From assembly GCA_020847435.1 (NCBI GenBank), contig JADLBX010000032.1, forward strand, positions 1-64,000: DNA of 64,000 nt, given 5' to 3'. This document shows, one piece after another, positions 56,546 to 58,663 of the stretch (the first letter of the stretch is position 1; every line of letters begins with the position of its first letter). The position numbers and the translations under genes were made by a program. Source of the stretch: Anaerolineales bacterium. GTDB lineage: Bacteria > Chloroflexota > Anaerolineae > Anaerolineales > Villigracilaceae. The notes beneath the pieces were generated by a model. That model saw only the letters and a list, made by a program, of their open reading frames with translations. It did not search any database and was not told the origin of the DNA.

Positions 56546-58228
56546 TCAACCTCCGACCTTCGCCGCGTAGTCGCTGTAGCCGCCGATGAATTCGGTGATG
56601 TGGGAATCCTTTAGCTCGAACACGCGGTTGACGGTGCGGTCGAGAAAATATCGGTCGTGCGAGATGACAAGTACGGTCCCGTTGAAATCTTCCAGCGCGT
56701 TCTCCAACACTTCGGCGGAGGCGATATCGAGATTGTTCGTCGGTTCATCCAGCAACAGGAAGTTGGCTCCCGATAGGACGAGTAACGCCAACTGAAGCCG
56801 ACTCCGCTCGCCGCCCGAGAGTGAGCCGACCCTTTGAGTCGCTTGACGATAGGTGAACAGGTAGCGGGTCAGAAAAGAAACGGCGCGTCCTTCGCTCATG
56901 TTGCCGCTGAGTCGCACCGCGTCCATGACTGTCTGATCAAAATCCAGCGTCTCATGCTCTTGCGCGTAATATCCCACCTTCACGCTCGGACCGAGTTTGA
57001 TCTCTCCGCTGGTCGGCGATTCTTTTTCCAGAATCAAACGCAATAACACAGACTTCCCCGCGCCGTTCGCGCCGATCAACCCCACGCGCTCGCCATGCCG
57101 AATGAGGAAGTTGAGATCGTTCAATATCGCTGGTCGAGTAGTCCCGCGATGCTCGTCGCGGGACGTATCGAGACCAGAGGTTGGATGTGCAAACGACTTG
57201 CTCACCCTCTCAAACTCCAAGACCTGATTCGACCCGCGCCAACCGTTCAACGCCAAATCCATTTTTCGGCGTTCCGTCACGGGCTTTTCGATCTTATCCA
57301 TTTTGTCCAAGCGCTTTTGCATGGACTTGGCTTTCTTTGCAAATTTCTCGTTGTCAAACACTTTGCCCCACATGGCAAAGCGTTTGATGGCGGTTTCCAA
57401 TCTGCCGATCTCGCGTTGTTGAACGCGATACAACTCCTCCTGTCGAGCGAGTCGTTCCTCTTTATCAAGGATGTATTCCGTGTAATTTCCGATGAACGTT
57501 GTGATTTTGCCGTCTTCGATCTCCGCGATGTGACTCGCCACCGCGTCGAGGATGTATCGGTCGTGCGAGATGATGACCACCGCGCCCGCGTAGTCGTTGA
57601 TCAGTTTTTCCAAATACGCTTTGCCTGGCATATCGAGGTGATTGTCTGGTTCGTCGAGCAACAGAACAGACGGACGCGCCAGTAACAGCCGCGCCAACCC
57701 GATCAGTTTTTTCTGCCCTCCGCTCAAGGCGTGGATGGGTTTCTCGAAATCCGATTCGGGCAGACCTAGTCCGCGCAGTGTTTCCCTCGCGCGTGATTCG
57801 TAATTTGCTCCGCCGAGCGCTTCAAACTCTCCCAACAATTTGTGTTGCGCGTCGAGGGCGCGTTCCAATTTTTTGGAATCGCCATAAACGGCGGGGTCGG
57901 CGAGTTTCGATTCAACGAGATGCAACTCCGCTTCCACCTCTGCCACGCGTGGATTTCCCTCCAGCGCGAGCGAGAGCGCTGTCCGTTGCGGGTCAAATTC
58001 GGGATGTTGAGGCAGGTAGCCCACCGTCACACCTTTGGCGCGGACGATCGTCCCGCCTTTTTCTGGTGCGTGTTCGCCGACGATTATCTTAAGCAACGAA
58101 GACTTCCCCGCGCCGTTCGGTCCGATCAGCCCGATCTTCTGGTCGTGCTGGATTTCCCAACTCAAGTCGCGGAAGATGGCGTGCGCGCCGAGAATAAGGC
58201 TGGCGTTTGAAATTGTGATTGAAATCAT
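56546..58228 (-). CDS. ABC-F family ATPase (ribosome-associated)
   Basis: A 560-aa protein with two ABC domains and no membrane part. First domain: GLIGPNGAGKSSLLKI, LSGGQKKLIGLARLLLARP, LLLDEPDNHLD; second: GLIGANGAGKSVLLRL, LSGGERSRLQLALL, LLLDEPTNNLD. The domains are joined by a charged linker (RLETAIKRFAMWGKVF...). ABC-F proteins act at the ribosomal E-site, some protecting from antibiotics. ATG 58228 is used; the preceding palindrome provides GAGGTCTTT as a ribosome-binding site. An in-frame repeat is at 57131-57176. Regulated by a leader peptide and attenuator upstream. Confidence 0.93.
   Translation of the reverse strand: MISITISNASLILGAHAIFRDLSWEIQHDQKIGLIGPNGAGKSSLLKIIVGEHAPEKGGTIVRAKGVTVGYLPQHPEFDPQRTALSLALEGNPRVAEVEAELHLVESKLADPAVYGDSKKLERALDAQHKLLGEFEALGGANYESRARETLRGLGLPESDFEKPIHALSGGQKKLIGLARLLLARPSVLLLDEPDNHLDMPGKAYLEKLINDYAGAVVIISHDRYILDAVASHIAEIEDGKITTFIGNYTEYILDKEERLARQEELYRVQQREIGRLETAIKRFAMWGKVFDNEKFAKKAKSMQKRLDKMDKIEKPVTERRKMDLALNGWRGSNQVLEFERVSKSFAHPTSGLDTSRDEHRGTTRPAILNDLNFLIRHGERVGLIGANGAGKSVLLRLILEKESPTSGEIKLGPSVKVGYYAQEHETLDFDQTVMDAVRLSGNMSEGRAVSFLTRYLFTYRQATQRVGSLSGGERSRLQLALLVLSGANFLLLDEPTNNLDIASAEVLENALEDFNGTVLVISHDRYFLDRTVNRVFELKDSHITEFIGGYSDYAAKVGG
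57131..57176. repeat. In-frame TGGTCGAGTAG palindrome in the ABC-F gene
   Basis: TGGTCGAGTAGTCCCGCG...CGCGGGACGTATCGAGACCA, translated between the linker and second ABC domain (GLDTSRDEHRGTTRPA). Same family as in helicase B. Confidence 0.8.
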
Positions 58229-58231
58229 AAA

Positions 58232-58262
58232 GACCTCACAGGTCTGAGAGACCTGTGAGGTC
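58232..58262. repeat. GACCTCACAGGTC palindrome at the ABC-F start
   Basis: A 31-bp near-perfect palindrome, family of 48841-48871, ending 3 nt before the ATG on the minus strand, so it contains the ribosome-binding site. Confidence 0.75.
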
Positions 58263-58281
58263 TCCCAAACAAATATTAAAC

Positions 58282-58314
58282 AAAAAACGCCGCGACGCTC
58301 CTGCGCCACGGCGT
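58282..58314 (-). terminator. Attenuator hairpin before ABC-F
   Basis: On the minus strand ACGCCG...CGGCGT with inner GC pairs, followed by TTTTTTG, between the leader peptide and the ABC-F start. Transcription that ends here would not reach ABC-F. Confidence 0.75.
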
Positions 58315-58332
58315 GATAAACAAAAACATCGT

Positions 58333-58425
58333 TTAGTCAGTAGGCGCGATTCGAGGAAGCCGCGCGCGCTCAAATCCACGCACACCGATGCAAAGGAAGG
58401 AGTTGCCTGATCTTTCGTATCGCAT
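58333..58425 (-). CDS. Leader peptide of the ABC-F gene, 30 aa
   Basis: ATG 58425 to TAA 58333-58335, ending 19 nt before the attenuator hairpin. The ATG is about 7 nt after the -10 box, so the RNA would be leaderless. The peptide reads MRYERSGNSFLCIGVRG followed by FERARLPRIAPTD; RAR is an Arg-x-Arg motif of the kind at which macrolide-bound ribosomes stall. The combination is typical of ribosome-mediated attenuation. Confidence 0.65.
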   Translation of the reverse strand: MRYERSGNSFLCIGVRGFERARLPRIAPTD

Positions 58426-58432
58426 GGCGCGG

Positions 58433-58461
58433 ATTATAACAGTCCCTGCCCAATCTGCAAA
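58433..58461 (-). promoter_or_regulatory. Promoter of the leader-peptide/ABC-F transcript
   Basis: Minus strand TTTGCA, 17-bp spacer, TATAAT. The start point would be at about 58426. Confidence 0.65.
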
Positions 58462-58462
58462 C

Positions 58463-58663
58463 ATTCTGATAAAATACCGCCCGCACGTCATGAACCTCGG
58501 AAGGCTCTCGAAAGCCCTCGGTCGTATCGGCTGGGGCTTTTTTGTTGAAAAGTAAACAAGAAAACAAGTAGGCACGTAGAAAAGCAAATACGAAGTACGC
58601 AATACGCAATACTCTGCCCGACTACCAAACCATCCAACTACCAAACAAAAGAACTATCAAACT
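58463..58663. other. typA upstream region with hairpin
   Basis: AAAGCCC (58511-58517) pairs with GGGCTTT (58534-58540) followed by TTTTG, a terminator-like hairpin. A 20-codon-type mini-ORF from ATG 58490 runs through it. After that come ACGAAGTACGCAATACGCAATACTC and AACTACCAAAC repeats, probably low-complexity intergenic filler. No clear promoter for typA. Confidence 0.4.

Follow-up and report, generated by a model that had tools for sequence, protein, structure and literature searches.

A conserved leader ORF without a Shine–Dalgarno motif upstream of an ABC-F gene in Anaerolineales: a probable ribosome-mediated attenuator

Is an ABC-F gene of an uncultured Anaerolineales bacterium controlled by ribosomes that translate a short ORF in front of it? 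The question is raised by the window analysed here, a 64,000-nucleotide stretch of contig JADLBX010000032.1, where a promoter, a small ORF and a terminator precede such a gene on the minus strand. As described in the available text of the respective papers, attenuation by uORFs is established for the ABC-F genes vmlR, cplR and lmrC (PMC9226507, PMC10201436, PMC8546547) and for the bmrCD exporter (PMC4191407). The comparisons below lead us to conclude that the window leader is probably a ribosome-mediated transcription attenuator of the ABC-F gene, and that its sensor peptide probably has a leaderless start.

The locus and the conservation of its leader

The initial annotation of the window claimed a layout of TTTGCA-17-TATAAT promoter, ATG, 30-codon ORF, terminator and ABC-F gene, and every one of these elements was found where it had been placed (Table 1). 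The ATG at 58425 lies 7 nt past the -10. An element absent from that description, the palindrome at 58263-58231, is probably an insertion that lies outside the switch. In relatives, different repeats occupy the same spot between the terminator and ABC-F.

Table 1. Features of the ABC-F locus in the window, and class II leader copies in the same genome
Feature	Position	Strand	Basis
Promoter: TTTGCA 58461-58456, 17 nt spacer, TATAAT 58438-58433, TGn preceding the -10	58433..58461	-	Sequence; -10 conserved
Leader ORF, predicted leaderless, 30 codons, MRYERSGNSFLCIGVRGFERARLPRIAPTD, stop TAA 58335-58333	58333..58425	-	Homologous ORFs in 75 leaders; third-position variability
Conserved core L-x-I-G-V-R-G-F, residues 11-18, proposed stall region	58372..58395	-	Conservation
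R-G-F codons, 5′ arm of hairpin P1	58380-58372	-	RNAalifold; 92.3% of cells paired
RNA box CCTCGAATCGCGCCTA; 3′ arm of P1 at 58352-58345; proposed antiterminator strand	58341..58356	-	Conserved as RNA, frame free
GGCGCAGG in terminator 5′ arm and loop, complementary to the box (GCGCC, CCT); proposed antiterminator partner	58300..58307	-	MFE pairing
Intrinsic terminator, hairpin 58314-58287, 12-bp stem (9 G-C), T6	58281..58314	-	Sequence; both-side changes
Palindrome GACCTCACAGGTCT...AGACCTGTGAGGTC, dispersed repeat between terminator and ABC-F start	58231..58263	-	Repeated in own and related genomes
ABC-F ATPase P0001, 560 aa, ATG 58228, presumed regulated gene	56546..58228	-	NCBIfam NF000355
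Class II leader copies, own genome (L162, L163)	G000:C32:128467-128670 (same contig as window); G000:C40:66409-66589		R2

The ABC-F protein scores 444 bits against NF000355 (ribosomal protection-like ABC-F, NCBIfam; cut-off 380) and contains ABC_tran and ABC_tran_Xtn domains. It scores under every cut-off for the named ARE subfamilies listed (Sal, Vga, Msr, CplR, Lsa, OptrA, CarA), its nearest named relatives belong to uncultured Anaerolineales, and a defence-gene scan returned generic ATPase matches only. The protein may confer antibiotic resistance.

On the plus strand, conserved TGATAnAAT and CCCGCACG motifs lie in the segment 58440-58545, together with an intrinsic terminator at 58516-58536. 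The segment directly precedes a gene that we take from its sequence to be BipA/TypA. This segment looks like a divergent promoter with a short terminated transcript of its own.

A promoter scan of the window region returned 2 matches against 1.7 expected in shuffles, which is chance level, and a terminator scan returned 10 against 4.9 +/- 2.4, which is not strong. Promoter-like sites at such a frequency would suit a chance juxtaposition of promoter, ORF and terminator. That account is refuted by 75 homologous leaders within a single bacterial order, and by the match of the window copy to the covariance model R1 described below (E 3.7e-35), and we give it practically no credence. The signal that exceeds chance at this locus is conservation, not the promoter match alone. 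At the level of sequence, comparison of the leaders establishes the spacing of promoter and start, coding constraint on a peptide core, RNA constraint on a box, the fixed spacing of that box, selection on the terminator and linkage to ABC-F.

The layout was present in 19 of the 22 upstream regions of ABC-F relatives that were first examined, and a covariance model, R1, was built from those 19 leaders. Against 400 genomes of the order, R1 matched 74 places in 73 genomes at E < 1e-9, and 110 genomes had matches at E <= 1e-3. At the latter threshold, 13 of 301 genomes in a phylum-wide sample were matched, all of them within the order, and R1 also had matches for 27 of 80 ABC-F relatives from named genomes. 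Seventy-five leaders from Anaerolineales were aligned; we refer to them as class I, to be told from a class II described below, both names being coined in this analysis. Their recurring layout consists of TATAAT, a start codon 6-10 nt further on, no SD, an ORF of 25-36 codons, the box, a stop codon and the terminator. ABC-F lies directly downstream in 74 of the 75, and the exception (L067) sits on a contig stretch without ABC-F.

A protein search of 120 genomes of the family found a close ABC-F (E <= 1e-150) in 67. Fifty-eight of these carry the leader, 4 are without it (G018, G260, G327, G687) and 5 are not assessable (G681, G402, G685, G693, G314; contig ends, partial genes or a leader on another contig). 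The architecture proposed initially, a leader peptide at the 5′ end of the transcript together with an attenuator before ABC-F, is supported by this conservation (58 of 67), with the peptide beginning on the predicted transcript start or about 0-3 nt from it. Whether the peptide is lost from relatives that keep ABC-F, the outcome named at the outset as speaking against this architecture, was also checked, and the peptide is conserved alongside ABC-F. The four ABC-F genes without a leader count against the attenuator reading. Within the genus, the leader is present in 12 of 12 genomes with ABC-F, and a strong match is absent from 6 of 6 genomes without ABC-F. In two of the genomes that lack the leader, G260 and G687 (L266, L271), TACAAT stands 7-10 nt ahead of the start of ABC-F itself, and these genes look as if they had turned constitutive and leaderless.

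Predicted leaderless start and coding content

The -10 reads TATAAT in 72 of the 75 leaders, and its distance to the start codon (ATG in 71, GTG in 4) is 6-10 nt in every leader and 7 nt in 50. An SD-like motif between the -10 and the start occurs in 0 of 75. The -10 is extended by TGn in 35 leaders, and the -35 is unconserved, with at least four of six consensus matches in only 21. Because the start codon follows the -10 by 6-10 nt, the usual distance from -10 to +1 would leave class I leaders with a 5′ UTR of roughly 0-3 nt. As a crude background, a -10-like site stands 5-10 nt ahead of one or another potential start in 3 of the 67 long ORFs of the window. Only a minority of genes in Chloroflexi are leaderless, with a mean of 4.7% in the 4 of 12 genomes where such genes were detected, according to the available text of PMC3160421.

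The initial annotation had judged a leader peptide at the very 5′ end of a transcript to be unusual, and precedents speak against this. Mycobacterial polycysteine leaders are reportedly leaderless leader ORFs at attenuators, with amino-acid sensing and other target genes. As presented in the available text of PMC7298713, trpL of Sinorhizobium meliloti starts at its ATG and is likewise a leaderless leader ORF at an attenuator, differing from the leader described here in that it senses amino acids and has other targets. Such leaders (peTrpL, PMC7298713) show that a leaderless start is compatible with the sensing of charged-tRNA shortage, and since the class of architecture is shared, the window leader could sense this shortage rather than a drug. 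Yet a run of a single residue is found in none of the leaders listed, and the genes downstream are ABC-F genes, joined in class II by ABC exporters and acetyltransferases, rather than biosynthesis genes. We consider an amino-acid attenuator improbable and retain the drug-sensing one.

Codon counts were aligned on [RN]-G-[FS], which excludes three leaders without a match and gives n=72. In 15 of the 18 codons up to F18, variability is highest at the third position, and past F this holds for just 3 of 9 codons. By this measure, selection acts on the peptide up to the core and on the RNA beyond it. The counts at the core are L60 - x - I52 - G54 - V48 - R62/N10 - G72 - F67/S5, and all six Leu codons are in use at the Leu position. 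Because the R-G-F codons serve both the peptide and a hairpin, their conservation cannot be apportioned between peptide and RNA, and the coding signal proper, as read from codon usage, comes from the residues that precede R-G-F. We know of no nameable stalling motif that the L-x-I-G-V-R-G-F core resembles.

An Arg-Ala-Arg in the window peptide had been put forward as a site at which macrolides stall the ribosome. Among the 75 leaders, RAR is present in one and an R-x-R of any kind in two, and the nearest relative has E-R-A-G at the same position. The tripeptide is ruled out as the stall site by its presence in a single leader, and the macrolide argument built on it therefore falls: the initial annotation was right on architecture and wrong on motif. 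The leader sequences themselves implicate no macrolide or other drug. Separately, the diverged class I leaders L089-L106 have cores such as FAMAINGF, FRGF or TNMRGS instead of IGVRGF, with the box unchanged, and their drug specificity is possibly different.

The RNA box and the proposed switch

The box lies in reading frame 2, 1 or 0 in 67, 5 and 3 of the 75 leaders, respectively, and its end falls 28-30 nt past the F codon in all 72 leaders counted, 65 of which have a distance of 29 nt. In three leaders, the stop codon is at the start of the box. Hairpin P1, a helix between the R-G-F codons and the box, is predicted by RNAalifold without guidance. In pair counts that were made on model-fitted alignments and so lean towards the models, P1 is paired in 92.3% of cells over the 75 leaders, with changes that are mostly one-sided (U-G versus C-G) and both-side changes found as single sequences at 2 of 8 pairs. 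In the leader L017, the box is altered and can still form an extended duplex with the R-G-F arm of that leader. In the same kind of count, the terminator helix is paired in 96.7% of cells, with both-side changes at 6 of 8 pairs, and on this comparison the class I terminator is under selection.

A short RNA box that is more conserved than the reading frame might also suggest a riboswitch-like RNA that binds a protein or ligand, the ORF being incidental. The coding-type codon statistics up to R-G-F, the conserved placement of the start codon and the absence of an Rfam match all argue against this, and we hold it to be very improbable. At gathering score, Rfam families matched neither the window nor any of 12 loci drawn from the two classes. 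The best match, to the S15 leader (15.7 bits versus 39.5, E 0.38), was taken as chance.

For the attenuator that we favour, we infer the transcript start, ribosome stalling, an inducing drug and an antiterminator, which together would operate as follows. Judging from the spacing, RNA polymerase would begin on the ATG itself or a few bases away, and the 5′-terminal start codon would be loaded by a ribosome. If this ribosome ran to the stop codon, it would cover the box and the terminator would form; if no ribosome loaded, the R-G-F codons would pair with the box as P1 and the terminator would form too. A drug-bound ribosome stalled around L-x-I-G-V-R-G-F would instead mask the 5′ arm of P1, so that the box, once released, could pair with the terminator 5′ arm and RNA polymerase would read on into ABC-F.

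Pairing of the box with the terminator 5′ arm is our best guess, from modelled folding, for the class I antiterminator. The window box contains GCGCC and CCT, which are able to pair with GGCGC and AGG in the arm and loop of its terminator, and the predicted energies are -15.8 kcal/mol for this pairing in the pre-terminator segment, -16.1 for P1 and -22.8 for the terminator. The pre-terminator segment folds with the box against the terminator arm in 74 of 75 leaders versus 84% with shuffled arms (mean z -1.1). Own partners pair slightly better than permuted ones (P 0.0095 for box and terminator, P 0.03 for arm and box), a modest effect in which relatedness is ignored. The box:terminator helix is paired in 77.6% of cells, its covariation is not beyond that of shuffles (143 of 500 reach the paired fraction), and it stands at a median 24th percentile against 260 real terminators, controls that were drawn from the same loci and may contain members of the family. 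Unaided RNAfold, applied to the part of the window leader that lies beyond a stalled ribosome, favours the terminator, and the antiterminator would therefore need to form kinetically.

These results bear on a reading in which there is no antiterminator: the terminator would be plainly leaky, and the leader would provide translation coupling or an intrinsic arrest relieved by ABC-F, which amounts to autoregulation through a factor-sensing arrest peptide. ABC-F factors act on stalled ribosomes, and the class I box:terminator pairing lacks covariation and lies near background terminators, both of which favour such a leader. Against it, the box keeps a fixed spacing regardless of frame, and the pre-terminator segment folds better than it does with shuffled arms. 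We judge this alternative unlikely, and the drug-sensing attenuator is further favoured by the related box logic of the class II leaders, in which a pairing with the box covaries.

A second class of leaders and known attenuators

Weak R1 matches (E 1e-4 to 1e-7) looked like noise initially, and reading 13 of them revealed a different leader, class II. Its order is a TTGACA-TAAACT promoter, GAAAGGAG(G)CGCACT, a short unconserved ORF, the box GGAGTGCGCCTGTTGACCG, a stop codon and a terminator, and RNAalifold pairs its SD region with the box. R2, a model of the class II leaders, has matches in 264 of 400 genomes of the order. The genome that contains the window has two class II leaders, each before a different ABC exporter (of 614 and 581 aa). 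Among 58 class II leaders, which are mostly best-scoring matches rather than a random sample, the downstream gene encodes one ABC exporter family in 42 cases, another in 5 and a GNAT acetyltransferase in 9, with 2 unassigned; in two of the 9 GNAT cases the gene is 0.7-1.3 kb downstream. The class II SD:box pairing is formed in 91.1% of cells and has 7 cells changed on both sides, a number reached by 1 of 500 shuffles. The class II box:terminator pairing is formed in 91.4%, with weak covariation, a mean z of -2.4 and a position at the 7th percentile versus real terminators. Because the boxes of the two classes are similar, their sequences suggest shared ancestry.

Both classes might be joined in a single reading, which we offer tentatively and with more doubt than conviction. 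Anaerolineales would possess a hitherto undescribed regulon, made up of drug-sensing attenuators that are built on one exchangeable RNA box. Before exporters and acetyltransferases, the box would be held by the SD region of the leader and sprung by any early stall. Before ABC-F, there would be no SD, the AUG would be the first codon of the RNA, and L-x-I-G-V-R-G-F, as a new arrest peptide, would use its R-G-F codons as both stall site and hairpin arm, the leaderless start making it specific for drugs that act at the elongation stage.

Other leader types also occur before ABC-F orthologues. In L247, L251 and L253-L255, several of which are from Chloroflexales, the gene is preceded by a terminator and by an SD-led leader ORF of another kind (MRWEIGTQSWVSTRGSTLGVGHRITVPCDWRAV-like), and in the Anaerolineae CHL10, Ardenticatenia and Promineifilum (L212, L221, L223) a further type of leader ORF with a terminator does so, for example MSFLSGYLNCIVQTHLLASIKAVPSRNVPGI in L212.

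A close known counterpart is the vmlR leader of Bacillus subtilis, in which a uORF, an anti-antiterminator, an antiterminator and a terminator before an ABC-F gene form the logical circuit that we propose for class I, as described in the available text of PMC9226507. The two differ in that the uORF consensus of vmlR is the three-residue MIN (PMC10201436), whereas the ORF here has 25-36 codons and a conserved core; the class I leader also has no SD, lies at the predicted 5′ end of the RNA and belongs to a different phylum. Likewise, cplR, lsaA and vmlR2 place ABC-F genes under short uORFs, with transcriptional and translational attenuation (PMC10201436), but their consensus peptides are MR[I/M], MAGN and MK[L/Q], and the available text of that source does not describe a leaderless start. 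The msrD leader is a further ribosome-mediated leader peptide before an ABC-F gene; its sensor is macrolide-specific, according to the available text of PMC10314930, and the class I motif differs from its own. Class II resembles bmrB-bmrCD of B. subtilis, where a leader peptide attenuates an ABC multidrug exporter, though the available text of PMC4191407 does not report a box family common with an ABC-F or acetyltransferase gene. In the open-licence literature searched, we found no description of attenuators with leader peptides from Anaerolineales or Chloroflexota.

ABC-F attenuation is known from Firmicutes and Streptomyces, and it now appears probable in uncultured Anaerolineales, where the sensor would be leaderless and its peptide has a conserved core. 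Codons that double as an arrest peptide and as an arm of the switch would make a compact and testable design. The related box before exporters and acetyltransferases, in turn, provides a sequence handle on genes that uncultured bacteria may induce against ribosome inhibitors.
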